A stretch of DNA of 64,000 bases, taken from positions 3,530,280-3,594,279 of the forward strand of contig CP136064.1 in assembly GCA_032622095.1 (NCBI GenBank). The letters run 5' to 3'. The notes beneath the pieces are model-generated. The model did no database searches and was not told where the DNA came from. It was given only the letters and a program-made list of their open reading frames with translations. This document shows positions 3,880 to 62,518 of this stretch, in pieces (position 1 is the first letter of the stretch; each line of letters begins with the position of its first letter). A program made the translations under genes and the position numbers. This stretch comes from Siphonodentalium dalli (taxonomy: Eukaryota; Mollusca; Scaphopoda; Gadilida; Siphonodentaliidae).

Positions 3880-4010
3880 ATAACAGAACGGCCCTGTGCC
3901 AATGCATTCTCTTATATATGCGAGTCGACCATAGGTCGCCTCGCATATATAAGAGAATGCATTGGCTTAACACATTATAAAATTATAAAATTGTTAAAGA
4001 ATGTAAGAAA
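3880..4010 (+). mobile_element. Family A MITE, left part
   Basis: Retains CAGAACGGCCCTGTGCC, the palindrome at 3898-3966 and the start of the AT-rich spacer (TTGTTAAAGAATGTAAG). The CCCTTTACCC terminus is lost. The matching right part is at 5030-5146 beyond the 161-bp satellite, so this appears to be one element split by satellite DNA. Confidence 0.65.
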
Positions 4011-6753: not shown

Positions 6754-6782
6754 TTAAGGGTCTACCCTTGTTGAATTGTTAC

Positions 6783-7201
6783 CTGTTGTCTTCCTTCCTC
6801 TGTGAGACCCATGTCGTAATATACACATTTCATCTCCGGGAAAACAGAGAATATCGTCCAATGCCAATTACGAAGAGCGGCCAGAGATTCAGTAAGATGG
6901 TTCTGTGACGCGGCTGTTACCATGACGGGGAGATCTGGAAAGGCGGCCACATATCGGATGGAACCAAGTTTAAATTCATCTCTAAATGCGCCATTTTCCA
7001 ACAAAGGATACGACGCGATTTTTTGAAGATTTTTGTCCCTCGTTTGACCGAGAGAACTTGTGCAGGGTATTTCCATCGTTGCTGGTCGGACATCGATGTT
7101 AGCCGCCTGCAATTCCGCCGATGAATATCTATATTTGACGTCATCTGTCGATACCGTTTCTTTGTGGTCTTGATCTGCTATTGAGAATTCTGTATTGAGT
7201 T
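6783..7201 (-). CDS. Internal exon, glycosyltransferase-like (TAASxNH/YDxGL) protein, partial gene
   Basis: A 419-base frame without stops lies between a good 3' splice site (TTAATTTCTCGCAG before 7201) and a donor (CAG then GTAACA at 6782). It enters in phase 1 and leaves in phase 0, giving about 139 codons. The distal part reads VMVTAASQNHLTES, then NWHWTIFSVFPEMKCV and YYDMGLTEEGRQQ. A TAASxNHxxES block followed by YDxGL is typical of the DUF1647/hexosyltransferase-like type II membrane proteins that are numerous in invertebrates; this assignment is from memory. The proximal part (LNTEFSIADQDHKETVS onward) would be stem region. The catalytic part should lie in later exons, which I could not find between here and position 1. 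The exon may therefore belong to a gene with long introns, or be an orphan. A phase-1 donor candidate upstream is at 14252. Confidence 0.55.
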
Positions 7202-7349
7202 CTGCGAGAAATTAATACCTTTCATTAAGGAAGAAGATGGTTCACCTGGATTGATAATACGAAAATATGAGCAGACGACAGATTGACGAACGGATAATAT
7301 AAGTACAGAATAATTTATATTCGTTGATGGGGAATGTTCAGATAATAAT

Positions 7350-11707: not shown

Positions 11708-12086
11708 CCCTTTACCCAACAGAAGGGCCCTGTGCCAATGCATTCTCTTATATATGCGAGTCGACCATAGGTCGCCTCGCATATATAAGAGAATGCATTG
11801 GCTTAACACTTTAAAAATTATAAAATTGTTAAAGAATGTAAGAAAAAATGGTATTAAGTTTTTTTTAGGCCAATGCATTCTCTTATATATGCGAGGCGAC
11901 CTATGGTCGACTCGCATATATAAGAGAATGCATTGGCACAGGGCATAACTGTAACTATCACAATGTGGTCAATGAGCCGGTTCCAATGATATCCATATTT
12001 GTATGGTTCTATTGAGACAGACCGAAGATATTTTAGGCTGTCGAAGCTTTATTTGGCCGGTTTTGGCCGGTTTATTGGGTAAAGGG
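11708..12086. mobile_element. Family A MITE, complete, TTAA flanks
   Basis: TTAA at 11704-11707 and 12087-12090. Left end CCCTTTACCCAACAGAAGGG, right end TTATTGGGTAAAGGG. Palindromes at about 11736-11804 and 11868-11936 are separated by the AT-rich spacer. Orientation is opposite to the copy at 6308-6753, with the long unique arm on the right. Confidence 0.85.
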
Positions 12087-17412: not shown

Positions 17413-17517
17413 TTTTGTCACACCTGCCCCCTGTCCATCCATAGTAACAACAGCACTGTATTATTCCGTCTCCGTTCTCTGTGCAGAGGCCGTGATCACA
17501 AGAATCATGTCTGCACC
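17413..17517 (-). CDS. EGF-like domain exon of an EB/EGF multidomain protein
   Basis: A 105-base exon encodes one EGF-like module: GCRHDSCDHGLC, TENGDGIIQCCC, YYGWTGGRCDK. The six cysteines follow C-x4-C-x4-C-x9-C-x-C-x8-C (one extra Cys inside the CCC), with the GWTG motif before the last. The acceptor is TTTTGATACCACCAG, preceded by a C/T-rich tract. The donor is AAAA/GTATGT. Both introns are phase 1, the classic symmetrical arrangement for EGF modules in extracellular proteins. The upstream exon on the same strand is the EB-like module at 19445-19573. The family is probably a MEGF/scavenger-receptor-like protein with alternating EB and EGF modules, common in molluscs (inference). Partial copies of this exon's start are amplified at 17518-18776. 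Confidence 0.75.
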
Positions 17518-18776
17518 CTGGTGGTATCAAAAGGAGAACAGATGGTTAATACTGTGGACCCCCCCCCCCCCCCACCACACGACGCAGAGGCCGTGGTCAC
17601 ACGAATCATGCCTGCACCCTGATGGTATTAATAGAAGAACATGTGGTTAATACTGTCACCCCCCCCCCACGACGCAAAGGGAGTGGCCAAACGAATCATG
17701 TCTGCACCCTGATGATATCAATAGGATAACATGTGGTTACTAATGTCGACCCCCCCCGCGACGCAGAAGGCGTGGTCACACGAATCGTGTCTGCAACCTG
17801 GTGGTATCAATATGAGAACATATGTTAATACTGTCGAGCCCCACCCACCCCACGACGCAGAGGGCGTGGTCACACGAATCATGTCTGCACCCTGATGGTA
17901 TTAATATAAGAACATGTGGTTAATACTGTCGAGCCCCTCCCCACCCGACAACGCAGAGGCCGTCGTCACACGAATCATGTCTGCACCCTGGTGACATCAA
18001 TATGATAACATATGGTTACTAATGTCGACCCCCCGCGACGCAGAAGGCGTGATCACACGAATCGTGTCTGCAACCTGGTGGTATCAATATGAGAACATAG
18101 GTTAATACTGTCGAGCCCCACCCACCCCACGACGCAGAGGGCGTGGTCACATGAATCATGTCTGCACCCTGATGGTATTAATAGGATAACATGTGGTTAC
18201 TAATGTCGACCCCCCCCGCGACGCAGAAGGCGTGGTCACACGAATCGTGTCTGCAACCTGGTGGTATCAATATGAGAACATAGGTTAATACTGTCGAGCC
18301 CCACCCACCCCACGACGCAGAGGGCGTGGTCACACGAATCATGTCTGCACCCTGATGGTATTAATATAAGAACATGTGGTTAATACTGTCGACCCCCCAC
18401 GACGCAGAGGGCGTGGCCACACGAATCATGTCTACACCCTGGTGACATCAATAGGATAACATATGGTTAATAATGTCGAGCCACCCCACGACACAGAGGC
18501 CGTGGTCACACGAATCATGTCTGCACCCTGATGGTATCAATAGGAGAATATAATTATGGTTAATACTGTCGAGCCCCACCCCCACGACACAAAGGCCATG
18601 GTCACACGAATCATGTCTGCACCCTGATGGTATCAATAGGATAACATATGGTTAATACTGTCGAGCCCAACCCCCACGATTCAGAGGCCGTGGTCACACG
18701 AATCATGTTTGCACCCTGATGGTATCAATAGGATAACATATGGTTAATACTGTCGAGCCCCCTGCCCCCACACCGG
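17518..18776 (-). repeat. About 90-bp minisatellite made of splice acceptor plus the first half of the EGF exon
   Basis: About 13 units of 86-95 bp. Read on the minus strand each has GTATTAACCATATG, then TATTGATACCATCAG, then 35 bases matching the start of the EGF exon (GGTGCAGACATGATTCGTGT to GGCCTCTGC), then a G/C-rich linker (GTCGTGGGG...GGGGCTCGACA). Each unit could encode GCRHDSCDHGLC, Cys1 to Cys3 of the module, and stops soon after. The true exon at 17413-17517 is the terminal, complete member. Variation in the linker (runs of C of 5 to 15) suggests slippage. Confidence 0.85.
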
Positions 18777-19444
18777 AACATTGTAAAAGTATAGATGTCC
18801 CGCCGGCACATAGCGGTACCCACCGGCACATTGTAAATCTATAGCGGGACCCACCAAATCATTGTAAATCTATAGCGGGACCCACCAAATCATTGTAAAT
18901 CTATAGCGGGACCCACCAAATCATTGTAAATCTATAGCGGGACCCATCGGATCATTGTAAATTTATAGAGGTACCCACCTGCACATTGTAAATCTATAGA
19001 GGTACCCACCGGCACATTGTAAATATATAGAGGTACCCACCGGCACATTGTAAATCTATATCGGTACCAACAGGATCATTGTAAATCTATAGCGGTACAA
19101 ACAGGATCATTTTAAATCTATAGCGGTACCCATCGGATAATTGTAAATTTATAGAGGTACCGATCTGATCATTGTGTATATATATAGCGGACCCACCGGA
19201 TCATTCTAAATCTATAGCGGTACCCACCGGATAATTGTAAATCTATAGCGGACCCACCTGATCATTGTAAATCTATAGCAGACCCACCGGATCATTGTAA
19301 ATCTATAGCGGACCCACCTGATCATTGTAAATCTATAGCAGACCCACCGGATCATTGTACATATATATATATAGCGGACCCACCGGAACATTCTAAATCT
19401 ATAGCGGACCTACCCGATAATTGTAAATCTATAGAGGTACCCAC
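18777..19444 (-). repeat. 31-bp minisatellite made of exon end plus splice donor
   Basis: About 21 units. On the minus strand the unit reads AATGTTCCG/GTGGGTCCGC plus TATAGATTTAC. It matches the junction of the EB exon (CAATGTTCGG/GTGGGTACCT, then CTATAGATTTAC), so each unit spans about 10 exon bases, the donor and about 20 intron bases. Many units keep GTGGGT after G, and some improve it to CAG/GTGGGT. The array abuts the acceptor array at 18776, and together they fill the intron. Confidence 0.85.
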
Positions 19445-19573
19445 CCGAACATTGCACCGGAAGGTGTTTGAATCGGTGGATCTGGCATTTACATACGCCA
19501 TCTTTACAGTGATGGTATCTCAAATCGTCTCGACAGTCCGTGTTTTCTCTGCATTCTCCACCAACAAGGACAG
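19445..19573 (-). CDS. EB-like six-cysteine module exon, same gene as the EGF exon
   Basis: A 129-base exon follows a strong acceptor (TTCTGTTTCTTTGTAG) and ends at TTCGG/GTGGGT. It is phase 1 at both ends. It encodes VLVGGECRENTDC, RDDLRYHHCKDGVCKC and QIHRFKHLPVQC. Cysteines: C-x5-C-x8-C-x4-C-x-C-x11-C, with the ECxxNxDC opening and GVCxC core seen in EB-type modules of extracellular multi-EGF proteins. The strand, phase and domain class match the EGF exon 1.9 kb downstream, so I place both in one minus-strand gene. The upstream exon (higher coordinates) was not recognised. The plus-strand frame 19452-19751 over the same DNA is taken as a shadow. Confidence 0.7.
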
Positions 19574-20885: not shown

Positions 20886-20932
20886 GCCGGTGTGGGGGGC
20901 GGGGGCTCGACAGTATTAACTATATAGTTATG
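20886..20932 (+). repeat. Inverted piece of the EGF-exon acceptor array at gap edge
   Basis: CCGGTGTGGGGGGCGGGGGC then TCGACAGTATTAACTATATA matches, on the opposite strand, the boundary of the two arrays near 18776. The acceptor array may continue in plus orientation into the gap, pointing to an inverted copy of the locus. Confidence 0.7.
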
Positions 20933-21032
20933 NNNNNNNNNNNNNNNNNNNNNNNNNNNNNNNNNNNNNNNNNNNNNNNNNNNNNNNNNNNNNNNNNNNN
21001 NNNNNNNNNNNNNNNNNNNNNNNNNNNNNNNN
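20933..21032. other. Assembly gap of 100 N
   Basis: Exactly 100 N, the usual placeholder for a gap of unknown size. It lies between an inverted minisatellite fragment and a 10-kb satellite, so collapsed repeats are the likely cause. Confidence 0.95.
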
Positions 21033-24000
21033 TTTCATGATAGCTGCTCATTTTAACCCCTCAGTAAGTTATCATGCCTGATGGGAGTTTAGTTTTCATG
21101 ATAGCTGCTCATTTTAACCCCTCAGTAAGTTACCATGCCTGATGGGAGTTTAGTTTTCTTGATAGCTGCTCATTTTAACCCCTCAGTAAGTTACCATGCC
21201 TGATGGGAGTTTAGTTTTCTTATGATAGCTGCTCACCCTTCATCATCAGAGTTTAATTGACCTGTGATGACGCTAACCCTCTGTAAGTTGACATGCGCTG
21301 ACTGGAGTTTAGTTTTCATGATAGCTGCTCATTTTAACCCCTCAGTAAGTTATCATGCCTGATGGGAGTTTAGTGTTCATGATAGCTGCTCACCCTTCAT
21401 CATCAGAGTTTAATTGACCTGTGATGACGCTAACCCCTCAGTAAGTTACCATGCGCTGACTGGAGTTTAGTTTTCATGATAGCTGCTCACCCTTCATAAT
21501 CAGAGTTTAATTGACCTGTGATGACGATAACCCTCAGTAAGTTACCATGCCTGATGGGAGTTTAGTTTTCATGATAGCTGCTCATTTTAACCCCTCAGTA
21601 AGTTACCATGCCTGATGGGAGTTTAGTTTTCATGATAGCTGCTCATTTTAACCCCTCAGTAAGTTATCATGCCTGATGGGAGTTTAGTGTTCTTATGATA
21701 GCTGCTCACCCTTCATCAACAGAGTTTAATTGACCTGTGATGTCGCTAACCCTCAGTAAGTTGACATGCGCTGACTGGAGTTTAGTTTTCATGATAGCTG
21801 CTCATTTTAACCCCTCAGTAAGTTACCATGCCTGATGGGAGTTTAGTTTTCTTATGATAGCTGCTCACCCTTCATCAACAGAGTTTAATTGACCTGTGAT
21901 GTCGCTAACCCTCAGTAAGTTGACATGCGCTGACTGGAGTTTAGTTTTCATGATAGCTGCTCATTTTAACCCCTCAGTAAGTTACCATGCCTGATGGGAG
22001 TTTAGTGTTCTTATGATAGCTGCTCACCCTTCATCAACAGAGTTTAATTGACCTGTGATGACGCTAACCCTCAGTAAGTTGACATGCGCTGACTGGAGTT
22101 TAGTTTTCATGATAGCTGCTCATTTTAACCCCTCAGTAAGTTACCATGCCTGATGGGAGTTTAGTTTTCTTATGATAGCTGCTCACCCTTCATCAACAGA
22201 GTTTAATTGACCTGTGATGACGCTAACCCTCAGTAAGTTGACATGCGCTGACTGGAGTTTAGTTTTCATGATAGCTGCTCATTTTAACCCCTCAGTAAGT
22301 TATCATGCCTGATGGGAGTTTAGTGTTCTTATGATAGCTGCTCACCCTTCGTCATCAGAGTTTAATTGACCTGTGATGACGCTAACCCCTCAGTAAGTTA
22401 CCATGCGCTGACTGGAGTTTAGTTTTCATGATAGCTGCTCATTTTAACCCCTCAGTAAGTTACCATGCCTGATGGGAGTTTAGTTTTCTTATGATAGCTG
22501 CTCATTTTAACCCCTCAGTAAGTTACCATGCCTGATGGGAGTTTAGTGTTCTTATGATAGCTGCTCACCCTTCATCATCAGAGTTTAATTGACCTGTGAT
22601 GACGCTAACCCTCAGTAAGTTATCATGCCTGATGGGAGTTTAGTGTTCTTATGATAGCTGCTCATTTTAACCCCTCAGTAAGTTACCATGCCTGATGGGA
22701 GTTTAGTTTTCTTATGATAGCTGCTCATTTTAACCCCTCAGTAAGTTACCATGTCTGATGGGAGTTTAGTTTTCTTATGATAGCTGCTCACCCTTCATCA
22801 TCAGAGTTTAATTGACCTGTGATGACGCTAACCCTCTGTGAGTTGACATGCGCTGACTGGAGTTTAGTTTTCATGATAGCTGCTCATTTTAACCCCTCAG
22901 TAAGTTACCATGCCTGATGGGAGTTTAGTTTTCTTGATAGCTGCTCATTTTAACCCCTCAGTAAGTTACCATGCCTGATGGGAGTTTAGTTTTCATGATA
23001 GCTGCTCATTTTAACCCCTCAGTAAGTTACCATGCCTGATGGGAGTTTAGTTTTCTTGATAGCTGCTCATTTTAACCCCTCAGTAAGTTACCATGCCTGA
23101 TGGGAGTTTAGTTTTCATGATAGCTGCTCATTTTAACCCCTCAGTAAGTTACCATGCCTGATGGGAGTTTAGTTTTCATGATAGCTGCTCATTTTAACCC
23201 CTCAGTAAGTTACCATGCCTGATGGGAGTTTAGTTTTCTTGATAGCTGCTCATTTTAACCCCTCAGTAAGTTACCATGCCTGATGGGAGTTTAGTTTTCA
23301 TGATAGCTGCTCATTTTAACCCCTCAGTAAGTTATCATGCCTGATGGGAGTTTAGTGTTCATGATAGCTGCTCATTTTAACCCCTCTGTAAGTTATCATG
23401 CCTGATGGGAGTTTAGTTTTCTTATGATAGCTGCTCACCCTTCATCATCAGAGTTTAATTGACCTGTGATGACGATAACCCTCTGTGAGTTGACATGCGC
23501 TGACTGGAGTTTAGTTTTCATGATAGCTGCTCATTTTAACCCCTCAGTAAGTTACCATGCCTGATGGGAGTTTAGTTTTCTTATGATAGCTGCTCACCCT
23601 TTATCATCAGAGTTTAATTGACCTGTGATGTCGCTAACCCTCAGTAAGTTACCATGCCTGATGGGAGTTTAGTTTTCATGATGGCTGCTCATTTTAACCC
23701 CTCAGTAAGTTATCATGCCTGATGGGAGTTTAGTTTTCTTATGATAGCTGCTAACACTTCGTCATCAGAGTTTAATTGACCTGTGATGTCACTAACCCTC
23801 TGTAAGTTACCATGTCTGATGGGAGTTTAGTTTTCTTATGATAGCTGCTCATTTTAACCCCTCAGTAAGTTACCATGTCTGATGGGAGTTTAGTTTTCTT
23901 ATGATAGCTGCTCATTTTAACCCCTCAGTAAGTTACCATGCCTGATGGGAGTTTAGTTTTCATGATAGCTGCTCATTTTAACCCCTCAGTAAGTTACCAT

Positions 24001-27000
24001 GCCTGATGGGAGTTTAGTTTTCATGATAGCTGCTCATTTTAACCCCTCTGTAAGTTACCATGCCTGATGGGAGTTTAGTTTTCTTATGATAGCTGCTCAC
24101 CCTTCGTCATCAGAGTTTAATTGACCTGTGATGGCGCTAACCCTCAGTAAGTTGACATGCGCTGACTGGAGTTTAGTTTTCATGATAGCTGCTCATTTTA
24201 ACCCCTCAGTAAGTTATCATGCCTGATGGGAGTTTAGTTTTCATGATAGCTGCTCATTTTAACCCCTCAGTAAGTTATCATGCCTGATGGGAGTTTAGTT
24301 TTCTTATGATAGCTGCTCACCCTTCATCATCAGAGTTTAATTGACCTGTGATGACGCTAACCCTCTGTAAGTTGACATGCGCTGACTGGAGTTTAGTTTT
24401 CATGATAGCTGCTCATTTTAACCCCTCAGTAAGTTACCATGCCAGATGGGAGTTTAGTTTTCATGATAGCTGCTCATTTTAACCCCTCAGTAAGTTACCA
24501 TGCCTGATGGGAGTTTAGTTTTCTCATGATAGCTGCTCACCCTTCATCATCAGAGTTTAATTGACCTGTGATGACGCTAACCCTCAGTAAGTTGACATGC
24601 GCTGACTGGAGTTTAGTTTTCATGATAGCTGCTCATTTTAACCCCTCAGTAAGTTACCATGCCTGATGGGAGTTTAGTTTTCTTATGATAGCTGCTCACC
24701 CTTCATCATCAGAGTTTAATTGACCTGTGATGACGCTAACCCTCAGTAAGTTGACATGCGCTGACTGGAGTTTAGTTTTCATGATTGCTGCTCATTTTAA
24801 CCCCTCAGTAAGTTACCATGCCTGATGGGAGTTTAGTTTTCTTATGATAGCTGCTCATTTTAACCCCTCAGTAAGTTACCATGCCTGATGGGAGTTTAGT
24901 TTTCTTATGATAGCTGCTCACCCTTCATCATCAGAGTTTATTTGACCTGTGATGACGCTAACCCTCAGTAAGTTACCATGCCTGATGGGAGTTTAGTTTT
25001 CTTATGATAGCTGCTCATTGTAACACCTCAGTAAGTTACCATGCCTGATGGGAGTTTAGTTTTCATGATAGCTGCTCATTGTAACACCTCAGTAAGTTAC
25101 CATGTCTGATGGGAGTTTAGTTTTCATGATAGCTGCTCATTTTAACCCCTCAGTAAGTTACCATGCCTGATGGGAGTTTAGTTTTCATGATAGCTGCTCA
25201 TTTTAACCCCTCTGTAAGTTATCATGCCTGATGGGAGTTTAGTTTTCATGATAGCTGCTCATTTTAACCCCTCAGTAAGTTACCATGCCTGATGGGAGTT
25301 TAGTTTTCATGATAGCTGCTCATTTTAACCCCTCAGTAAGTTACCATGTCTGATGGGAGTTTAGTTTTCATGATAGCTGCTCATTTTAACCCCTCAGTAA
25401 GTTACCATGCCTGATGGGAGTTTAGTTTTCATGGTAGCTGCTCATTTTAACCCCTCAGTAAGTTATCATGCCTGATGGGAGTTTAGTTTTCATGATAGCT
25501 GCTCACCCTTCATCATCAGAGTTTAATTGACCTGTGATGACGCTAACCCTCAGTAAGTTACCATGCCTGATGGGAGTTTAGTTTTCATGATAGCTGCTCA
25601 TTTTAACCCCTCAGTAAGTTACCATGCCTGATGGGAGTTTAGTTTTCTTATGATAGCTGCTCATTTTAACCCCTCAGTAAGTTACCATGCCTGATGGGAG
25701 TTTAGTTTTCTTATGATAGCTGCTCATTTTAACCCCTCAGTAAGTTACCATGCGCTGACTGGAGTTTAGTTTTCATGATAGCTGCTCATTTTAACCCCTC
25801 AGTAAGTTACCATGCCTGATGGGAGTTTAGTTTTCTTATGATAGCTGCTCACCCTTCATCATCAGAGTTTAATTGACCTGTGATGACGCTAACCCTCTGT
25901 AAGTTGACACGTGCTGACTGGAGTTTAGTGTTCATGATAGCTGCTCATTTTAACCCCTCAGTAAGTTATCATGCCTGATGGGAGTTTAGTTTTCTTATGA
26001 TAGCTGCTCACCCTTCATCAACAGAGTTTAATTGACCTGTGATGTCGCTAACCCTCAGTAAGTTACCATGCCTGATGGGAGTTTAGTTTTCTTATGATAG
26101 CTGCTCATTTTAACCCCTCAGTAAGTTACCATGCCTGATGGGAGTTTAGTTTTCATGATAGCTGCTCATTTTAACCCCTCAGTAAGTTACCATGCCTGAT
26201 GGGAGTTTAGTTTTCTTATGATAGCTGCTCACCCTTCATCAACAGAGTTTAATTGACCTGTGATGTCGCTAACCCTCAGTAAGTTACCATGCCTGATGGG
26301 GAGTTTTAGTTTTCTTATGATAGCTGCTCATTTTAACCCCTCAGTAAGTTACCATGCCTGATGGGAGTTTAGTTTTCATGATAGCTGCTCATTTTAACCC
26401 CTCAGTAAGTTACCATGCCTGATGGGAGTTTAGTTTCTTATGATAGCTGCTCACCCTTCATCATCAGAGTTTAATTGACTCTGTGATGTCGCTAACCCTC
26501 AGTAAAGTTACCATGCCTGATGGGAGTTTAGTGTTCTTATGGTGACTTCTGACTGTTCGTCATCAGAGTTTAATTGACCTGTGATGACGCTAACCCTCAG
26601 TAAGTTACCATGTCTGATGGGAGTTTTAGTTTTCTTATGATAGCTGCTCATTTTAACCCCTCAGTAAGTTACCATGCCTGATGGGAGTTTAGTTTTCTTA
26701 TGATAGCTGCTTCATTTTAACCCCTCAGTAAGTTACCATGCCTGATGGGAGTTTAGTTTTCTTATGATAGCTGCTCACCCTTCATCATCAGAGTTTAATT
26801 GACCTGTGATGACGATAACCCTCAGTAAGTTACCATGTCTGATGGGAGTTTAGTTTTCATGATAGCTGCTCATTTTAACCCCTCAGTAAGTTACCATGCC
26901 TGATGGGAGTTTAGTTTTCTTATGATAGCTGCTCACCCTTCATCATCAGAGTTTAATTGACCTGTGATGACGCTAACCCTCAGTAAGTTACCATGTCTGA

Positions 27001-30000
27001 TGGGAGTTTAGTTTTCATGATAGCTGCTCATTTTAACCCCTCAGTAAGTTACCATGCCTGATGGGAGTTTAGTTTTCTTATGATAGCTGCTCACCTTCAT
27101 CATCAGAGTTTAATTGACCTGTGATGACGCTAACCCTCAGTAAGTTACCATGTCTGATGGGAGTTTAGTTTTCTTATGATAGCTGCTCATTTTAACCCCT
27201 CAGTAAGTTACCATGCCTGATGGGAGTTTAGTTTTCTTATGATAGCTGCTCATTTTAACCCCTCAGTAAGTTACCATGCCTGATGGGAGTTTAGTTTTCT
27301 TATGATAGCTGCTCACCCTTCATCATCAGAGTTTAATTGACCTGTGATGTCGCTAACCCTCACTAAGTTATCATGCCTGATGGGAGTTTAGTGTTCATGA
27401 TAGCTGCTCATTTTTAACCCCTCTGTAAGTTACCATGCCTGATGGGAGTTTAGTTTTCATGATAGCTGCTCACCCTTCATCATCAGAGTTTAATTGACCT
27501 GTGATGTCGCTAACCCTCTGTGAGTTACCATGCCTGATGGGAGTTTAGTGTTCTTATGGTGACTTCTGACTGTTCGTCATCAGAGTTTAATTGACCTGTG
27601 ATGACGATAACCCTCAGTAAGTTACCATGTCTGATGGGAGTTTAGTTTTCATGATAGCTGCTCATTTTAACCCCTCAGTAAGTTACCATGCCTGATGGGA
27701 GTTTAGTTTTCATGATAGCTGCTCATTTTAACCCCTCAGTAAGTTACCATGCCTGATGGGAGTTTAGTGTTCATGATAGCTGCTCATTTTAACCCCTCAG
27801 TAAGTTATCATGTCTGATGGGAGTTTAGTTTTCTTATGATAGCTGCTCACCCTTCATCATCAGAGTTTAATTGACCTGTGATGTCGCTAACCCTCTGTAA
27901 GTTACCATGCCTGATGGGAGTTTAGTTTTCATGATAGCTGCTCATTTTAACCCCTCAGTAAGTTGACATGCGCTGACTGGAGTTTAGTTTGATGATAGCT
28001 GCTCATTTTCACCCCTCAGTAAGTTATCATGCCTGATGGGAGTTTAGTTTTCTTATGATAGCTGCTCACCCTTCATCATCAGAGTTTAATTGACCTGTGA
28101 TGTCGCTAACCCTCAGTAAGTTACCATGCCTGACTGGAGTTAGTGTTCATGATAGCTGCTCATTTTAACCCCTCTGTAAGTTACCATGCCTGATGGGGAG
28201 TTTAGTTTTCATGATAGCTGCTCATTTTAACCCCTCAGTAAGTTGACATGCGCTGACTGGAGTTTAGTTTTGATGATAGCTGCTCATTTTAACCCCTCAG
28301 TAAGTTACCATGCCTGATGGGAGTTTAGTTTTCATGATAGCTGCTCATTTTAACCCCTCAGTAAGTTACCATGCCTGATGGGAGTTTAGTTTTTCTTATG
28401 ATAGCTGCTCACCCTTCATCATCAGAGTTTAATGACCTGTGATGACGATAACCCTCTGTAAGTTACCATGTCTGATGGGAGTTTAGTTTTCATGATAGCT
28501 GCTCATTTTAACCCCTCAGTAAGTTACCATGCCTGATGGGAGTTTAGTTTTCTTATGATAGCTGCTCACCCTTCATAATCAGAGTTTAATTGACCTGTGA
28601 TGACGCTAACCCCTCAGTAAGTTATCATGCCTGATGGGGAGTTTAGTTTTCATGATAGCTGCTCATTTTAACCCCTCAGTAAGTTATCATGCCTGATGGG
28701 AGTTTAGTTTTCTTATGATAGCTGCTCACCCTTCATCATCAGAGTTTAATTGACCTGTGATGACGCTAACCCTCTGTAAGGTTACCATGCCTGATGGGAG
28801 TTTAGTTTCATGATAGCTGCTCATTTTAACCCCTCAGTAAGTTACCATGCCTGATGGGAGTTTAGTTTTCTTTATGATAGCTGCTCACCCTTCATCAACC
28901 AGAGTTTAATTGACCTGTGATGTCGCTAACCCTCTGTAAGTTACCATGCCTGATGGGAGTTTAGTTTTCTTATGATAGCTGCTCACCCTTCATCATCAGA
29001 GTTTAATTGACCTGTGATGTCGCTAACCCTCAGTAAGTTACCATGCCTGATGGGAGTTTAGTTTTCATGATAGCTGCTCATTTTAACCCCTCAGTAAGTT
29101 ACCATGCCTGATGGGAGTTTTAGTTTTCATGGTAGCTGCTCATTTTAACCCTCAGTAAGTTACCATGCCTGATGGGAGTTTAGTTTTCTTATGATAGCTG
29201 CTCACCCTTCATCATCAGAGTTTAATTGACCTGTGATGACGATAACCCTCAGTAAGTTATCATGCCTGATGGGAGTTTAGTTTTCATGGTAGCTGCTCAT
29301 TTTAACCCCTCAGTAAGTTACCATGCCTGATGGGAGTTTAGTTTTCTTATGATAGCTGCTCACCCTTCATCATCAGAGTTTAATTGACCTGTGATGACGA
29401 TAACCCTCAGTAAGTTATCATGCCTGATGGGAGTTTAGTTTTCATGGTAGCTGCTCATTTTAACCCCTCAGTTAAGTTACCATGCCTGATGGGAGTTCAG
29501 TTTTCTTATGATAGCTGCTCACCCTTCATCATCAGAGTTTAATTGACCTGTGATGACGCTAACCCCTCTGTAAGTTACCATGTCTGATGGGAGTTTAGTT
29601 TTCATGGTAGCTGCTCATTTTAACCCCTCAGTAAGTTACCATGCCTGATGGGAGTTTTAGTTTTCATGGTAGCTGCTCATTTTAACCCCTCAGTAAGTTA
29701 CCATGCCTGATGGGAGTTTAGTTTTCTTATGATAGCTGCTCACCCTTCATCATCAGAGTTTAATTGACCTGTGATGACGATAACCCTCAGTAAGTTATCA
29801 TGCCTGATGGGAGTTTAGTTTTCATGGTAGCTGCTCATTTTAACCCCTCAGTAAGTTACCATGCCTGATGGGAGTTCAGTTTTCTTATGATAGCTGCTCA
29901 CCCTTCATCATCAGAGTTTAATTGACCTGTGATGACGCTAACCCTCAGTAAGTTATCATGCCTGATGGGAGTTTAGTTTTCATGATAGCTGCTCATTTTA

Positions 30001-31640
30001 ACCCCTCAGTAAGTTACCATGCCTGATGGAGTTTAGTTTTCTTATGATAGCTGCTCACCCTTCATCATCAGAGTTTAATTGACCTGTGATGACGCTAACC
30101 CTCAGTAAGTTACCATGCCTGATGGGAGTTTAGTGTTCTTATGATAGCTGCTCATTTTAACCCCTCTGTAAGTTATCATGCCTGATGGGAGTTTAGTTTT
30201 CTTATGATAGCTGCTCACCCTTCATCTCAGAGTTTAATTGACCTGTGATGTCGCTAACCCTCTGTAAGTTACCATGCCTGATGGGAGGTTTAGTTTTTCA
30301 TGATAGCTGCTCATTTTAACCCCCAGTAAGTTACCATGCCTGATGGGAGTTTAGTTTTCATGATAGCTGCTCATTTTAACCCCTCAGTAAGTTATCATGC
30401 CTGATGGGAGTTTAGTTTTCATGATAGCTGCTCATTTTAACCCCTCAGTAAGTTATCATGCCTGATGGGAGTTTAGTTTTCTTATGATAGCTGCTCACCC
30501 TTCATCATCAGAGTTTAATTGACCTGTGATGACGCTAACCCTCAGTAAGTTACCATGCCTGATGGGAGTTTAGTTTTCATGGTAGCTGCTCATTTTAACC
30601 CTCAGTAAGTTACCATGCCTGATGGGAGTTTAGTTTTCATGATAGCTGCTCATTTTAACCCCTCAGTAAGTTACCATGCCTGATGGGAGTTTAGTGTTCT
30701 TATGATAGCTGCTCACCCTTCATCAACAGAGTTTAATTGACCTGTGATGACGCTAACCCTCAGTAAGTTATCATGTCTGATGGGAGTTTAGTGTTCATGA
30801 TAGCTGCTCATTTTAACCCCCTCAGTAAGTTATCATGCCTGATGGGAGTTTAGTGTTCTTACGGTGACTTCTGACTGTTCATCATCAGAGTTTAATTGAC
30901 CCTGTGATGTCGCTAACCCTCAGTAAGTTACCATGTCTGATGGGAGTTTAGTGTTCTTACGGTGACTTCTGACTGTTCATCATCAGAGTTTAATTGACCT
31001 GTGATGTCGCTAACCCTCTGTAAGTTGGACATGTGCTGACTGGAGGTTTAGTTTTCTTATGATAGCTGCTAACACTTCGTCATCAGAGTTTATTTGACCT
31101 GTGATGACGATAACCCTCTGTAAGTTGAGATGCGCTGACTGGAGGTTTAGTTTTCTTATGATAGCTGCTAACACTTCGTCATCAGAGTTTATTTGACCTG
31201 TGATGACGATAACCCTCTGTAAGTTGAGATGCGCTGACTGGAGTTTAGTTTTCTTATGATAGCTGCTGACACTTCGTCAGAGTTTAATTGACCTGTGATC
31301 CTGTGATTGTCGCTAACCGTATGAAGTTGACATGCTCTGAAGTGAGTTTAGTTTTCTTATGACGGCTGCTAAAGTTTTCTTTTGATGTCTGTTAAGTTTT
31401 TAACCCTGAGTCATCATAACTTAATTCACCTGTGATGGCTGCTAACCCTATGTAAATTAACATGCTCAGTGACTGTCCACCATGTGATAGCTGCTAACCC
31501 TATGTAAATTAACATGCCCAGTCACTGTCACCATGTGATGGCTTCTAACCCTATGTATATGTAAGTTAAGTTAACATGCCCAGTCACTGTCACCCCTGCG
31601 CTGTCTGCTGACCCTCAGTAAATTGTTATGCCCAGACTGA
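21033..31640 (+). repeat. 10.6-kb satellite with mixed 61-bp and 98-bp units
   Basis: The short unit is 61 bp (TTTTCATGATAGCTGCTCAT, TTTAACCCCTCAGTAAGTTA, CCATGCCTGATGGGAGTTTA, G). The long unit (about 98 bp) inserts CCCTTCATCATCAGAGTTTA then ATTGACCTGTGATGACGCTA and ends GACATGCGCTGACTGGAG. Short and long units are interspersed without strict order. From about 31280 the units diverge (GCTGCTAACCCTATG, ACATGCCCAGTCACTGTC) until the pattern fades near 31640, as expected of an array edge. The left edge is hidden by the gap. No frame persists. Confidence 0.95.
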
Positions 31641-45474: not shown

Positions 45475-46565
45475 ATGAGAGCTGTGCTGGTGCAGCATTA
45501 AAGAAGTCTGCTGTCACTAAATAACTTACATTTACCTCCCATAAGGAGCCTCGCATACTATACATGTATATATAAGAGAATGCATTGGTTTACAAGGTCA
45601 TGGTAATTAGTGTTAGGCCAATGTATTCTCTTATATATGTATATGTGAGGCTCCCTATGTGAGTTTCACATATATAAGAGAATGCATTGGTTTACAAGGT
45701 CATGGTAATTAGTGTTAGGCCAATGTATTCTCTTATATATGTATATGTGAGGCTCCCTATGTGAGTGTCTCATATATAAGAGAATGCATTGGTTTACAAG
45801 GTTATGGTAATTAGTGTTAGGCCAATGTATTCTCTTATACATCTACATGTATATCCGAGGCTCCCTATGTGAGTTTCACATATATAAAAGAGTGCATTGG
45901 TTTACAAGGTCATGGTAATTAGTTTTAGGCCAATGTATTCTCTTATACATGTACATGTATATGTGAGGCTCCCTATGTGAGTGTCGCATATAAAAGAGAA
46001 TGCATTGGTTTACAACGTCAAGGTAAATATTGTTAGGCCAGTGCATTCTCTTATACATGTATATGTGAGGCTCCCTATGTGAGTGTCGCATATAAAAGAG
46101 AATGCATTGGTTTACAAGGTCAAGGTAAATATTGTTATGCCAGTTCATTCTCTTATACATGTATATGTGAGGCTCCCTATGTGAGTGTCGCATATAAAAG
46201 AGAATGCATTGGTTTACAAGGTCAAGGTAAATATTGTTAGGCCAGTGCATTCTCTTATACATGTATATGTGAGGCTCCCTATGTGAGTGTCGCATATATA
46301 AGAGAATGCATTGGTTTACAAGGTCAAGGTAAATATTGTTAGGCCGGTGCATTCTCTTATACATGAATATGTGAGGCTCCCTATGTGAGTGTCGCATATA
46401 TAAGAGAATGCATTGGTTTACAAGGTCAAGGTAAATATTGTTAGGCAAATGCATTCTCTTATATATGCAAGGTTCCCTATGGGAGAATCACATATATAAG
46501 AGAACGCATTGGTTTACAAGGTCAAGGTAAATATTATCATGGCAATGCATTCTCTTATATATGCG
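45475..46565. mobile_element. Family C element with palindrome expanded into about ten tandem units
   Basis: TTAA at 45471-45474, then CCCTTTCATGATGAGAGCTG and GCTGGTGCAGCATTAAAG. Units of about 100-110 bp follow: CCAATGTATTCTCTTATA, TGTGAGGCTCCCTATGTGAG, ATATAAGAGAATGCATTGG, TTTACAAGGTCAAGGTAAAT. The 192-codon minus frame at 45876-46454 is only the repeat read through. The right terminus is missing. Confidence 0.8.
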
Positions 46566-49265: not shown

Positions 49266-49345
49266 GTTTTCTAGAGAATGCTGATAAAAAGATAGTCATA
49301 AAAATCTCCCTATTCTAGTAACGTCGTCTCAAACAAAAAGAAAAA

Positions 49346-49972
49346 ATGAACAGCAACGCCCCAGAATATACGCCTTCACCGAGGCCACACCCACGGATAT
49401 CCACGGAAGCTCAGTCGTATGCTGACAGAAACAGGGGCAATCCACTCTGGGGTGACCAGGAGTCAAACGGGTACGGATCACAGGTTCATGGTCGAGGCTT
49501 GACATCAGAAGGTATAAAAAATGCCAACATCAATAAAGGATCAATGAATGACATAATGGGAGGCTACCCCGACCCAGCACCGTCACGGAAAATCCACCCG
49601 CGCGGAACCACAGGTGATGCGGCGACAATCGCAGCCGAAAATAAGGGCGGGGCTATGAAGTCTCTCATTGATGAGTACGGGAGTTTGGACTGTGATCCTC
49701 CACCACCACAGAAGGTTCAGGGATTCGACGCGATGGATAACGCTGATAGGAATGTTGGTAGTATTGGTAACGTTATGTATAGCTCTAATCATCCACCCGA
49801 GGTGCAGCCTCGACAGCAGCTAGGATACGGAGGAGAGGAGGTCGCACAGAAACATAAAGGAGCAGACATGGGGCCCTTATTAAGTATGGAACAAAAGGGA
49901 CCCGAAAGTCCGAGAGAACCTAAAGTTAGCAGACTCCATGAAACGTCAAAAGGCGGCGGGTATGTAATGTAA
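49346..49972 (+). CDS. 208-residue protein with five degenerate NKG repeats, unknown family
   Basis: A single coding exon. The ATG follows AAAGAAAAA, and an in-frame TAA at 49319 rules out a longer N-terminus in this exon. I do not recognise the family. Five spaced motifs share (D/E)A..xAxxN(K/R)G: EAQSYADRNRG (21-31), EGIKNANINKG (55-65), DAATIAAENKG (91-101), DAMDNADRNVG (128-138), EEVAQKHKG (164-172). Each is followed within about 8 residues by a hydrophobic pair (IM, LI, VM, LL) and linked by Pro/Gly-rich segments (HPRIST, HPRGTTG, DPPPPQK). There is no signal peptide, membrane segment or cysteine pattern (one Cys), so it is probably cytosolic and largely disordered. Codon use is balanced, unlike nearby repeat frames. 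A type D MITE begins three bases after the stop, and the last 29 codons are duplicated at 50363. AATAAA at 50829 is a possible poly(A) signal. Confidence 0.7.
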   Translation: MNSNAPEYTPSPRPHPRISTEAQSYADRNRGNPLWGDQESNGYGSQVHGRGLTSEGIKNANINKGSMNDIMGGYPDPAPSRKIHPRGTTGDAATIAAENKGGAMKSLIDEYGSLDCDPPPPQKVQGFDAMDNADRNVGSIGNVMYSSNHPPEVQPRQQLGYGGEEVAQKHKGADMGPLLSMEQKGPESPREPKVSRLHETSKGGGYVM

Positions 49973-54240: not shown

Positions 54241-54445
54241 TCCAAGGGCATTGCGCTCCATTATCGAACCTCCATTAGTGACTAGCAGCCCTACAGTCAT
54301 TAGCAGCCCTCGGCTATCACCTCAGGTCTCAACGCTCCAGAAAATCATTTTATTTATATTCTTCTGATCAAGTATTAAGTAATAATTGTTTGTCAATGTT
54401 TTTATTCGTCAGCAAAGGTACTGATGACTGTCATCTGTTTAGGTC

Positions 54446-55740
54446 TGTATGAGTCTCCAAACGGGAGTGTTATATAACCCTGTATGAGTCTCCAAACGGG
54501 AGTGTTATATAACCCTGTATGAGTCTCCAAACGGGAGTGTTATATAACCCTGTATGAGTCTCCAAACGGGAGTGTTATATAACCCTGTATGAGTCTCCAA
54601 ACGGGAGTGTTATATAACCCTGTATGAGTCTCCAAACGGGAGTGTTATATAACCCTGTATGAGTCTCCAAACGGGAGTGTTATATAACCCTGTATGAGTC
54701 TCCAAACGGGAGTGTTATATAACCCTGTATGAGTCTCCAAACGGGAGTGTTATATAACCCTGTATGAGTCTCCAAACGGGAGTGTTATATAACCCTGTAT
54801 GAGTCTCCAAACGGGAGTGTTATATAACCCTGTATGAGTCTCCAAACGGGAGTGTTATATAACCCTGTATGAGTCTCCAAACGGGAGTGTTATATAACCC
54901 TGTATGAGTCTCCAAACGGGAGTGTTATATAACCCTGTATGAGTCTCCAAACGGGAGTGTTATATAACCCTGTATGAGTCTCCAAACGGGAGTGTTATAT
55001 AACCCTGTATGAGTCTCCAAACGGGAGTGTTATATAACCCTGTATGAGTCTCCAAACGGGAGTGTTATATAACCCTGTATGAGTCTCCAAACGGGAGTGT
55101 TATATAACCCTGTATGAGTCTCCAAACGGGAGTGTTATATAACCCTGTATGAGTCTCCAAACGGGAGTGTTATATAACCCTGTATGAGTCTCCAAACGGG
55201 AGTGTTATATAACCCTGTATGAGTCTCCAAACGGGAGTGTTATATAACCCTGTATGAGTCTCCAAACGGGAGTGTTATATAACCCTGTATGAGTCTCCAA
55301 ACGGGAGTGTTATATAACCCTGTATGAGTCTCCAAACGGGAGTGTTATATAACCCTGTATGAGTCTCCAAACGGGAGTGTTATATAACCCTGTATGAGTC
55401 TCCAAACGGGAGTGTTATATAACCCTGTATGAGTCTCCAAACGGGAGTGTTATATAACCCTGTATGAGTCTCCAAACGGGAGTGTTATATAACCCTGTAT
55501 GAGTCTCCAAACGGGAGTGTTATATAACCCTGTATGAGTCTCCAAACGGGAGTGTTATATAACCCTGTATGAGTCTCCAAACGGGAGTGTTATATAACCC
55601 TGTATGAGTCTCCAAACGGGAGTGTTATATAACCCTGTATGAGTCTCCAAACGGGAGTGTTATATAACCCTGTATGAGTCTCCAAACGGGAGTGTTATAT
55701 AACCCTGTATGAGTCTCCAAACGGGAGTGTTATATAACCC
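54446..55740 (+). repeat. 35-bp satellite block, 37 identical units
   Basis: Unit TGTATGAGTCTCCAAACGGG plus AGTGTTATATAACCC, 37 copies in 1295 bp with no substitution seen. It is the short form of the adjacent 61-bp unit and lacks 26 bases. Perfect homogeneity indicates very recent expansion, or assembly from few reads. Confidence 0.95.
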
Positions 55741-58700
55741 TTTCATGACTGTCGTCTGTTTAGGTCTGTATGAGTCTCCAAACGGGAGTGTTATATAACC
55801 CTGTATGAGTCTCCAAACGGGAGTGTTATATAACCCTGTATGAGTCTCCAAACGGGAGTGTTATATAACCCTTTCATGACTGTCGTCTGTTTAGGTCTGT
55901 ATGAGTCTCCAAACGGGAGTGTTATATAACCCTGTATGAGTCTCCAAACGGGAGTGTTATATAACCCTTTCATGACTGTCGTCTGTTTAGGTCTGTATGA
56001 GTCTCCAAACGGGAGTGTTATATAACCCTTTCATGACTGTCGTCTGTTTAGGTCTGTATGAGTCTCCAAACGGGAGTGTTATATAACCCTTTCATGACTG
56101 TCGTCTGTTTAGGTCTGTATGAGTCTCCAAACGGGAGTGTTATATAACCCTTTCATGACTGTCGTCTGTTTAGGTCTGTATGAGTCTCCAAACGGGAGTG
56201 TTATATAACCCTTTCATGACTGTCGTCTGTTTAGGTCTGTATGAGTCTCCAAACGGGAGTGTTATATAACCCTTTCATGACTGTCGTCTGTTTAGGTCTG
56301 TATGAGTCTCCAAACGGGAGTGTTATATAACCCTTTCATGACTGTCGTCTGTTTAGGTCTGTATGAGTCTCCAAACGGGAGTGTTATATAACCCTTTCAT
56401 GACTGTCGTCTGTTTAGGTCTGTATGAGTCTCCAAGCGGGAGTGTTATATAACCCTTTCATGACTGTCGTCTGTTTAGGTCTGTATGAGTCTCCAAGCGG
56501 GAGTGTTATATAACCCTTTCATGACTGTCGTCTGTTTAGGTCTGTATGAGTCTCCAAGCGGGAGTGTTATATAACCCTTTCATGACTGTCGTCTGTTTAG
56601 GTCTGTATGAGTCTCCAAGCGGGAGTGTTATATAACCCTTTCATGACTGTCGTCTGTTTAGGTCTGTATGAGTCTCCAAGCGGGAGTGTTATATAACCCT
56701 TTCATGACTGTCGTCTGTTTAGGTCTGTATGAGTCTCCAAGCGGGAGTGTTATATAACCCTTTCATGACTGTCGTCTGTTTAGGTCTGTATGAGTCTCCA
56801 AACGGGAGTGTTATATAACCCTTTCATGACTGTCGTCTGTTTAGGTCTGTATGAGTCTCCAAACGGGAGTGTTATATAACCCTTTCATGACTGTCGTCTG
56901 TTTAGGTCTGTATGAGTCTCCAAACGGGAGTGTTATATAACCCTTTCATGACTGTCGTCTGTTTAGGTCTGTATGAGTCTCCAAACGGGAGTGTTATATA
57001 ACCCTTTCATGACTGTCGTCTGTTTAGGTCTGTATGAGTCTCCAAGCGGGAGTGTTATATAACCCTTTCATGACTGTCGTCTGTTTAGGTCTGTATGAGT
57101 CTCCAAACGGGAGTGTTATATAACCCTTTCATGACTGTCGTCTGTTTAGGTCTGTATGAGTCTCCAAACGGGAGTGTTATATAACCCTTTCATGACTGTC
57201 GTCTGTTTAGGTCTGTATGAGTCTCCAAACGGGAGTGTTATATAACCCTTTCATGACTGTCGTCTGTTTAGGTCTGTATGAGTCTCCAAACGGGAGTGTT
57301 ATATAACCCTTTCATGACTGTCGTCTGTTTAGGTCTGTATGAGTCTCCAAACGGGAGTGTTATATAACCCTTTCATGACTGTCGTCTGTTTAGGTCTGTA
57401 TGAGTCTCCAAACGGGAGTGTTATATAACCCTTTCATGACTGTCGTCTGTTTAGGTCTGTATGAGTCTCCAAACGGGAGTGTTATATAACCCTTTCATGA
57501 CTGTCGTCTGTTTAGGTCTGTATGAGTCTCCAAACGGGAGTGTTATATAACCCTTTCATGACTGTCGTCTGTTTAGGTCTGTATGAGTCTCCAAACGGGA
57601 GTGTTATATAACCCTTTCATGACTGTCGTCTGTTTAGGTCTGTATGAGTCTCCAAACGGGAGTGTTATATAACCCTTTCATGACTGTCGTCTGTTTAGGT
57701 CTGTATGAGTCTCCAAACGGGAGTGTTATATAACCCTTTCATGACTGTCGTCTGTTTAGGTCTGTATGAGTCTCCAAACGGGAGTGTTATATAACCCTTT
57801 CATGACTGTCGTCTGTTTAGGTCTGTATGAGTCTCCAAACGGGAGTGTTATATAACCCTTTCATGACTGTCGTCTGTTTAGGTCTGTATGAGTCTCCAAA
57901 CGGGAGTGTTATATAACCCTTTCATGACTGTCGTCTGTTTAGGTCTGTATGAGTCTCCAAACGGGAGTGTTATATAACCCTTTCATGACTGTCGTCTGTT
58001 TAGGTCTGTATGAGTCTCCAAACGGGAGTGTTATATAACCCTTTCATGACTGTCGTCTGTTTAGGTGTGTATGAGTCTCCAAACGGGAGTGTTATATAAC
58101 CCTTTCATGACTGTCGTCTGTTTAGGTCTGTATGAGGCTCCAAACGGGAGTGTTATATAACCCTTTCATGACTCGTCTGTTTAGGTCTGTATGAGTCTCC
58201 AAACGGGAGTGTTATATAACCCTTTCATGACTGTCGTCTGTTTAGGTCTGTATGAGTCTCCAAACGGGAGTGTTATATAACCCTTTCATGACTGTCGTCT
58301 ATTTAGGTCTGTATGAGTCTCCAAACGGGAGTGTTATATAACCCTTTCATGACTGTCGTCTGTTTAGGTCTGTATGAGTCTCCAAACGGGAGTGTTATAT
58401 AACCCTTTCATGACTGTCGTCTGTTTAGGTCTGTATGAGGCTCCAAACGGGAGTGTTATATAACCCTTTCATGACTGTCGTCTGTTTAGGTCTGTATGAG
58501 TCTCCAAACGGGAGTGTTATATAACCCTTTCATGACTGTCGTCTGTTTAGGTCTGTATGAGTCTCCAAACGGGAGTGTTATATAACCCTTTCATGACTGT
58601 CGTCTGTTTAGGTCTGTATGAGTCTCCAAACGGGAGTGTTATATAACCCTTTCATGACTGTCGTCTGTTTAGGTCTGTATGAGTCTCCAAACGGGAGTGT

Positions 58701-61700
58701 TATATAACCCTTTCATGACTGTCGTCTGTTTAGGTCTGTATGAGTCTCCAAACGGGAGTGTTATATAACCCTTTCATGACTGTCGTCTGTTTAGGTCTGT
58801 ATGAGGCTCCAAACGGGAGTGTTATATAACCCTTTCATGACTGTCGTCTGTTTAGGTCTGTATGAGTCTCCAAACGGGAGTGTTATATAACCCTTTCATG
58901 ACTGTCGTCTGTTTAGGTCTGTATGAGTCTCCAAACGGGAGTGTTATATAACCCTTTCATGACTGTCGTCTGTTTAGGTCTGTATGAGTCTCCAAACGGG
59001 AGTGTTATATAACCCTTTCATGACTGTCGTCTGTTTAGGTCTGTATGAGTCTCCAAACGGGAGTGTTATATAACCCTTTCATGACTGTCGTCTGTTTAGG
59101 TCTGTATGAGTCTCCAAACGGGAGTGTTATATAACCCTTTCATGACTGTCGTCTGTTTAGGTCTGTATGAGTCTCCAAACGGGAGTGTTATATAACCCTT
59201 TCATGACTGTCGTCTGTTTAGGTCTGTATGAGTCTCCAAACGGGAGTGTTATATAACCCTTTCATGACTGTCGTCTGTTTAGGTCTGTATGAGTCTCCAA
59301 ACGGGAGTGTTATATAACCCTTTCATGACTGTCGTCTGTTTAGGTCTGTATGAGTCTCCAAACGGGAGTGTTATATAACCCTTTCATGACTGTCGTCTGT
59401 TTAGGTCTGTATGAGTCTCCAAACGGGAGTGTTATATAACCCTTTCATGACTGTCGTCTGTTTAGGTCTGTATGAGTCTCCAAACGGGAGTGTTATATAA
59501 CCCTTTCATGACTGTCGTCTGTTTAGGTCTGTATGAGTCTCCAAACGGGAGTGTTATATAACCCTTTCATGACTGTCGTCTGTTTAGGTCTGTATGAGTC
59601 TCCAAACGGGAGTGTTATATAACCCTTTCATGACTGTCGTCTGTTTAGGTCTGTATGAGTCTCCAAACGGGAGTGTTATATAACCCTTTCATGACTGTCG
59701 TCTGTTTAGGTCTGTATGAGGCTCCAAACGGGAGTGTTATATAACCCTTTCATGACTGTCGTCTGTTTAGGTCTGTATGAGTCTCCAAACGGGAGTGTTA
59801 TATAACCCTTTCATGACTGTCGTCTGTTTAGGTCTGTATGAGTCTCCAAACGGGAGTGTTATATAACCCTTTCATGACTGTCGTCTGTTTAGGTCTGTAT
59901 GAGTCTCCAAACGGGAGTGTTATATAACCCTTTCATGACTGTCGTCTGTTTAGGTCTGTATGAGTCTCCAAACGGGAGTGTTATATAACCCTTTCATGAC
60001 TCGTCTGTTTAGGTCTGTATGAGTCTCCAAACGGGAGTGTTATATAACCCTTTCATGACTGTCGTCTGTTTAGGTCTGTATGAGTCTCCAAACGGGAGTG
60101 TTATATAACCCTTTCATGACTGTCGTCTGTTTAGGTCTGTATGAGTCTCCAAACGGGAGTGTTATATAACCCTTTCATGACTGTCGTCTGTTTAGGTCTG
60201 TATGAGTCTCCAAACGGGAGTGTTATATAACCCTTTCATGACTGTCGTCTGTTTAGGTCTGTATGAGTCTCCAAACGGGAGTGTTATATAACCCTTTCAT
60301 GACTGTCGTCTGTTTAGGTCTGTATGAGTCTCCAAACGGGAGTGTTATATAACCCTTTCATGACTGTCGTCTGTTTAGGTCTGTATGAGTCTCCAAACGG
60401 GAGTGTTATATAACCCTTTCATGACTGTCGTCTGTTTAGGTCTGTATGAGTCTCCAAACGGGAGTGTTATATAACCCTTTCATGACTGTCGTCTGTTTAG
60501 GTCTGTATGAGTCTCCAAACGGGAGTGTTATATAACCCTTTCATGACTGTCGTCTGTTTAGGTCTGTATGAGTCTCCAAACGGGAGTGTTATATAACCCT
60601 TTCATGACTGTCGTCTGTTTAGGTCTGTATGAGTTTCCAAACGGGAGTGTTATATAACCCTTTCATGACTGTCGTCTGTTTAGGTCTGTATGAGTCTCCA
60701 AACGGGAGTGTTATATAACCCTTTCATGACTGTCGTCTGTTTAGGTCTGTATGAGTCTCCAAACGGGAGTGTTATATAACCCTTTCATGACTGTCGTCTG
60801 TTTAGGTCTGTATGAGTCTCCAAACGGGAGTGTTATATAACCCTTTCATGACTGTCGTCTGTTTAGGTCTGTATGAGTCTCCAAACGGGAGTGTTATATA
60901 ACCCTTTCATGACTGTCGTCTGTTTAGGTCTGTATGAGTCTCCAAACGGGAGTGTTATATAACCCTTTCATGACTGTCGTCTGTTTAGGTCTGTATGAGT
61001 CTCCAAACGGGAGTGTTATATAACCCTTTCATGACTGTCGTCTGTATGAGTCTCCAAACGGGAGTGTTATATAACCCTTTCATGACTGTCGTCTGTTTAG
61101 GTCTGTATGAGTCTCCAAACGGGAGTGTTATATAACCCTTTCATGACTGTCGTCTGTTTAGGTCTGTATGAGTCTCCAAACGGGAGTGTTATATAACCCT
61201 TTCATGACTGTCGTCTGTTTAGGTCTGTATGAGTCTCCAAACGGGAGTGTTATATAACCCTTTCATGACTGTCGTCTGTTTAGGTCTGTATGAGTCTCCA
61301 AACGGGAGTGTTATATAACCCTTTCATGACTGTCGTCTGTTTAGGTCTGTATGAGTCTCCAAACGGGAGTGTTATATAACCCTTTCATGACTGTCGTCTG
61401 TTTAGGTCTGTATGAGTCTCCAAACGGGAGTGTTATATAACCCTTTCATGACTGTCGTCTGTTTAGGTCTGTATGAGTCTCCACGGGAGTGTTATATAAC
61501 CCTTTCATGACTGTCGTCTGTACGAGTCTCCAAACGGGAGTGTTATATAACCCTTTCATGACTGTCGTCTGTTTAGGTCTGTATGAGTCTCCAAACGGGA
61601 GTGTTATATAACCCTTTCATGACTGTCGTCTGTACGAGTCTCCAAACGGGAGTGTTATATAACCCTTTCATGACTGTCGTCTGTTTAGGTCTGTATGAGT

Positions 61701-62201
61701 CTCCAAACGGGAGTGTTATATAACCCTTTCATGACTGTCGTCTGTTTAGGTCTGTATGAGTCTCCAAACGGGAGTGTTATATAACCCTTTCATGACTGTC
61801 GTCTGTATGAGTCTCCAAACGGGAGTGTTATATAACCCTTTCATGACTGTCGTCTGTTTAGGTCTGTATGAGTCTCCAAACGGGAGTGTTATATAACCCT
61901 TTCATGACTGTCGTCTGTTTAGGTCTGTATGAGTCTCCAAACGGGAGTGTTATATAACCCTTTCATGACTGTCGTCTGTTTAGGTCTGTATGAGTCTCCA
62001 AACGGGAGTGTTATATAACCCTTTCATGACTGTCGTCTGTTTAGGTCTGTATGAGTCTCCAAACGGGAGTGTTATATAACCCTTTCATGACTGTCGTCTG
62101 TTTAGGTCTGTATGAGTCTCCAAACGGGAGTGTTATATAACCCTTTCATGACTGTCGTCTGTTTAGGTCTGTATGAGTCTCCAAACGGGAGTGTTATATA
62201 A
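55741..62201 (+). repeat. 61-bp satellite block, about 105 units
   Basis: Unit: the 35-bp form plus TTTCATGACTGTCGTCTGTT and TAGGTC. The first units mix 35- and 61-bp forms. Variants include CCAAGCGGG (mostly 56420-57050), GAGGCTCC, and units missing TTAGGTCT. The junction CCCTTTCATGACTG equals the terminus of family C elements, and the array ends inside the family C copy at 62202. Confidence 0.95.
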
Positions 62202-62518
62202 CCCTTTCATGACTGGAGCTGCGCTGGTGCAGCATTAAAGATCATGTGCCAGTGCATTCTCTTATATATATATATACTGTCTCCCATAGGGAGCCTTGCA
62301 TATTTAAGAGAATACACATGTAATTACTGTTAGGCCAATGTATCCCTTTTGGGAGACTCGCATATATAAGAGAATGCACTGACTTACAGGGTCAAGGTAA
62401 ATATTGTTAGACCAATGTATTCTCTAATATATGAAAGTCTTCCTAGACTCGCATATATAAGAGAATGTATTGGCACAGGGTTTTTGCAAACTTTCAGGAA
62501 GCCTCAGTCATGAAAGGG
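62202..62518. mobile_element. Family C MITE at satellite end
   Basis: Ends CCCTTTCATGACTGGAGCTG and GCCTCAGTCATGAAAGGG, then TTAA (62519-62522). ATAA precedes the left end. Three palindrome derivatives lie inside (CATTCTCTTATA, CATATATAAGAGAATG). The first 14 bases are shared with each 61-bp satellite unit. Confidence 0.85.

Follow-up and report, generated by a model that had tools for sequence, protein, structure and literature searches.

Two exon-like stretches separated by a repeat-filled interval lie on the minus strand of the 64,000-nucleotide stretch of Siphonodentalium dalli DNA that was analysed (the window). The first, at 19445–19573, is EB-like and preceded by a candidate acceptor, TTTGTAG/CT; it is 129 bp long, a length divisible by three, with phase 1 at both ends. 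The second, at 17413–17517, is EGF-like, 105 bp long, also in phase 1 at both ends, and is followed by a candidate donor, AAAA/GTATGT. When the two are joined at CAATGTTCGG/GTGGGT and CACCAG/GGTGCAG the product is stop-free and the phases agree, such that both putative exons are open and intact at the edges of the arrays described below, with an in-frame junction. This arrangement suggests that the EB-like and EGF-like stretches are exons of one transcript.

Of eight stretches compared with Pfam, the EB-like stretch alone yielded a clear match, to the EB family (E 6.1e-5), with 23.4 bits being just under the family cut-off of 24.3, while the remaining matches ranged from E 0.014 to 0.45 and included the single weak match of the EGF-like stretch (E 0.45). 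The joined 79-amino-acid peptide showed neither an EB nor an EGF match in Pfam, its sole match being to an unrelated family (E 0.071). Five weak matches were obtained when the locus was searched against the PDB, to Notch (E 0.015), Jagged-1 (E 0.21), Spitz/LIN-3 (E 0.32), an evasin (E 0.3) and a PPR-DYW protein (E 0.66). Further exons of the gene were sought in two ways. The two exon peptides, used as protein queries, recovered the exons themselves and their copies in the arrays, with no other match below E 0.29, and scanning for open, Cys-rich segments flanked by splice-like signals revealed no further convincing EB- or EGF-like exon at the thresholds set. Searches for structured RNAs and tRNAs found none, and the folding energies of five stretches, calculated as DNA, were no better than those of shuffled sequences (z -0.59 to 0.91).

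The putative intron between these exons extends over 1,927 bp and consists of two tandem arrays, A on the donor side and B on the acceptor side, which abut near 18772–18776. Each array overlaps the edge of the adjacent exon, the overlap being 10 bases of the EB exon for A and 35 bases of the EGF exon for B. Tandem Repeats Finder (TRF) leaves positions 18763–18809 unlabelled between them; by eye, however, the sequence from 18810 to about 18772 still consists of degenerate A units and therefore no unique intron stretch is evident. The original prediction, that this intron is built from tandem copies of its own donor and its own acceptor, with the two arrays meeting at 18776 and filling it, was borne out. 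What stands out about the locus is that both borders of a single intron carry arrays and that these fill the intron.

Array A (18772–19454, minus strand) has a unit of 30–31 bp. TRF places a 31-bp array of 20.8 copies at 18810–19454 and our parse, starting at 19454, yielded 21 copies, followed by degenerate ones that by eye continue to about 18772. Spacings between successive units are 31 bp in twelve cases and 30 bp in six, together 18 of the 20, with single spacings of 32 and 36 bp. This agrees with the approximately 21 copies of a 31-bp unit spanning the donor junction that had been predicted, with the correction that the exonic share amounts to only 10 bases, since the first copy, which spans the donor, includes just the final 10 bases of that exon (EB). 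The short exonic overlap was compared, in register, with the 14 A copies having an intact GTGGGT, and it matches each of them at 7 or 8 of the 10 positions. Of 61,791 ten-mers elsewhere on the minus strand, 4 attain a mean match as high as this and 218 equal the best single match (8 of 10), whereas none of 16 other GTGGGT sites attains either value. Elsewhere in the window, the best match to the A unit among those listed had E 0.14.

Array B (17483–18771, minus strand) has a longer unit of about 92 bp. TRF reports arrays of period 183 and 277 within 17483–18762, corresponding to two and three units, and the parse resolved 13 full copies, preceded by a partial one at 18771 and followed by the copy belonging to the exon itself (17518–17483), which matches the manually entered unit at 34 of 36 positions. 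Spacings range from 87 to 101 bp with a mean of 92. Every full copy carries TATTAAC or TAGTAAC, which we take to be branch-point-like, together with the acceptor CAG, the initial 35 bases of the EGF exon and a G-rich linker that is variable; the expectation of about 13 copies of a unit of roughly 90 bp holding the acceptor and those 35 exon bases was thus confirmed. Moreover, two-unit blocks recur at 18352/18258, 18169/18075 and 17892/17798, with first units 98–99% alike and second units 92–98% alike, a pattern that points to segmental duplication on repeated occasions.

Over 33 bases, the exonic B copy departs from the most frequent base of the array at 3 sites. Two of these are synonymous third positions and the remaining one is a site that varies among the 13 copies of the array, as would be expected if the coding exon were the source of the repeat and not its product. 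Among the 13 units, the exon-derived part shows somewhat less variation than the intron part (0.112 versus 0.150), and 9 of 17 distinct changes within it are synonymous by manual count. The associated P value lies between 0.005 and 0.25 depending on the rates assumed, and coding constraint on the B copies is not established by it, although constraint or conversion may possibly act on the exon-derived part, and we count this against a purely neutral origin of the arrays.

Splice sites were scored with an approximate matrix, to which all the scores given here refer, and donors with a score of at least 5.9 were considered strong. Of the 50 GT dinucleotides, 17 are strong by this measure. One is the putative true donor, GTGGGT at 19439–19444 (minus strand), which scores 7.5, and the other 16, in which GT is retained, are internal to array A, four of them outscoring the true donor (three at 9.7 and one at 8.0). 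On score alone, the best EB model in the scan for Cys-rich exons ended at the inner donor 19413 and not at 19444. On the acceptor side, AG is retained in all 13 upstream copies with scores of 7.6–9.9, and the copy at 17618 ties with the true acceptor at 9.9. When the 17 strong donors are paired with the 14 acceptors, 237 of the 238 combinations carry a stop; the true donor is the sole strong one with an open frame to any acceptor, in the outermost pair, 19444 with 17517, and therefore no useful isoform is predicted. Including all 50 GT dinucleotides, two of 700 pairs are open, the additional one combining 17517 with 19450, a weak donor (score 0.4) located six bases inside the EB exon. Cassette mini-exons within B were also considered and rejected by eye, the stretch from an acceptor to the next GTGGGT being 43 bases long, which is not a multiple of three.

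Some unproductive use of the inner sites is possible, and the arrays might even serve as splicing decoys, whereby their copy number would set the level of unproductive-site use and the stops would lower expression via nonsense-mediated decay. The prevalence of stops and the retention of AG and GT throughout the arrays both fit such a role, but retention of the signals also follows from recent duplication, given identities of up to 99% between copies, and we consider a decoy function unlikely.

Some of unit B also occurs outside the intron, because 45 bp of the A/B junction (18776–18733) recur in inverted orientation at 20887–20931 on the plus strand, with 91% identity (E 1.3e-10). The two places share the start CCGGTGTGGGGG, and the inverted copy contains a 14-base palindrome, TAACTATATAGTTA, and ends next to an N gap at 20933–21032. 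It may have arisen as a dispersed element, as a local inverted copy or as a mis-assembled gap edge. The first of these origins invites a different account of the acceptor side, namely that array B is for the most part a satellite or dispersed element, which was located at the acceptor and incorporated the 35 exon bases as it expanded. The similarity and the common start are consistent with this; against it, the 18-base CTCGACAGTATTAAC core, allowing up to three mismatches, has 15 matches in the window of which 20887–20931 is the sole one outside the locus, and the inverted copy covers the intron half of the B unit without the exon part and stops at the assembly gap. We therefore regard a dispersed origin of array B as improbable. 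Three exact patterns gave no match in the viral_contigs collection, which is a poor one for an animal.

The same gap edge bears on the possibility that the copy numbers or the array junction were mis-assembled. At a distance of about 1.4 kb, the N gap is bordered by sequence that matches the A/B junction, and in amphioxus the comparable repeats of one globin gene are reported to have been aberrantly assembled in a genome draft (PMC3087553). Copies within both arrays nevertheless differ from one another throughout, and each array is flanked by an exon, such that an artefact seems very unlikely.

Tandem repeats built on splice borders are already known. The human interferon-induced 6-16 gene, whose minisatellite was described in 1995, is said to provide a one-sided, donor-side precedent with in-frame use of some of the inner donors; in the present intron, no open frame results from any of the 16 strong inner sites. 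There is also a likeness to the creation of introns by local duplication that copies splice signals within a gene, although in the present case an intron between domain exons seems to have been lengthened rather than created.

The closest parallels are found in amphioxus genes, where tandem duplications of exon-intron borders, occurring at both 5' and 3' borders, have been termed "mirages" (PMC3087553, PMC3902484). In these reports, BflGb6 carries an acceptor-side and BflGb9 a donor-side mirage, additional to earlier Adh3 cases, and their lengths differ between haplotypes (PMC3087553); PGBD5 was added later, with splicing over the repeats predicted rather than shown, and troponin C was named (PMC3902484). 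A link between mirages and intron gain has also been proposed (PMC3087553). As in Adh3, BflGb6, BflGb9 and PGBD5, the repeats described here are border-spanning tandem duplications with splice signals in many copies, and the anatomical features of a mirage are present, with exonic bases in the unit, retained GT and AG dinucleotides and intact edge exons, the last being exons by prediction. Copy numbers differ, with about 21 and 13 here, 6 and 3 for haplotypes of BflGb6, and 2–7 for PGBD5. Arrays at both borders that fill the intron are a property of this locus, whereas BflGb6 and BflGb9 are affected on one side each; double-sided cases are possible in Adh3 or troponin C, and one may be in print elsewhere.

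Human genes in segmental duplications provide a second comparison, in which repeats of the minisatellite type are reported at the boundaries between exons and introns, together with 27 intron modifications and, for some genes, alternative splicing (PMC2812944). The likeness lies in minisatellite expansion at the boundary, but the human repeats have units of about 30 bp and 4 repeats on average, occur in recent paralogs and are often associated with alternative transcripts. The original prediction had considered amplification at both borders unusual. The two-sided overlap, with an array across each splice border of the intron, stands and goes beyond chance, while border duplications as such had already been published (PMC3087553, PMC3902484, PMC2812944). 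Independent seeding from the two borders, which had also been proposed, can be suggested from the arrangement, with the reservation that part of unit B also recurs outside the intron.

We consider it likely that the arrays arose by neutral minisatellite expansion from both intron borders and that splicing employs the first donor and the last acceptor and removes them. Within repeat-rich animal DNA, each border of the intron would have given rise to a minisatellite that expanded by local tandem duplication, through slippage and unequal exchange, and each unit would therefore carry a copy of a splice border. The spliceosome would then define two complete exons, which are presumably transcribed and joined, and such exon definition would protect the transcript. 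The array limits with their exon overlaps, the recurrent two-unit blocks of B, the nature of the three sites at which the exonic B copy differs, and the stops in all strong pairings but the outermost support this account. Published mirages with the same anatomy count in its favour, and the regular splicing of the Adh3 and globin genes, which reportedly seems undisturbed (PMC3087553), does so too and speaks against decoys. The abundance of tandem repeats also favours a neutral expansion, with 33 merged arrays making up 42.6% of the window (41% outside the locus, or 11% without the two largest arrays), which at the same time makes the overlap of arrays with the borders less surprising. Several observations count against a neutral expansion: the inner donors scoring 9.7 and 8.0, together with the tied acceptor at 17618; the second open pair, weak though its donor is; and the capacity of human boundary repeats to alter splicing (PMC2812944), which likewise favours decoys.

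It is also conceivable, though quite doubtful, that splice borders attract minisatellites in this genome, in which case both borders would have been amplified independently and the intron rebuilt, perhaps around a small dispersed G-rich element. If so, the locus would constitute a natural test of how exon definition chooses one donor and one acceptor among about 30. With a neutral expansion, too, it provides a clear double-sided example of tandem repeats made from splice borders and, if RNA were to show clean splicing, a natural test of exon definition in which equal or better donor and acceptor copies stand in series and the outermost strong pair alone works.

A few other features of the window were recorded. 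The two very large tandem arrays extend over 21033–31557 (10.5 kb, beginning right after the N gap) and 54445–62215 (7.8 kb). The sequence RTGCATTCTCTTATA has 64 matches with at most one mismatch, against 0.01 expected by chance, spread over many places such as 827–887, 3902–3962, 11738–11798 and 45571–46559. Many of these matches form inverted pairs about 46 bases apart, with partial amplification as a 102-bp tandem array; the sequence looks like a small dispersed foldback element. Finally, a 149-amino-acid open frame at 6762–7211 (minus strand) has a weak Pfam match to DUF1647 (E 0.03) and may be an exon of another gene, and a 216-amino-acid open frame with no Pfam match at E 10 is located at 49322–49972 (plus strand).
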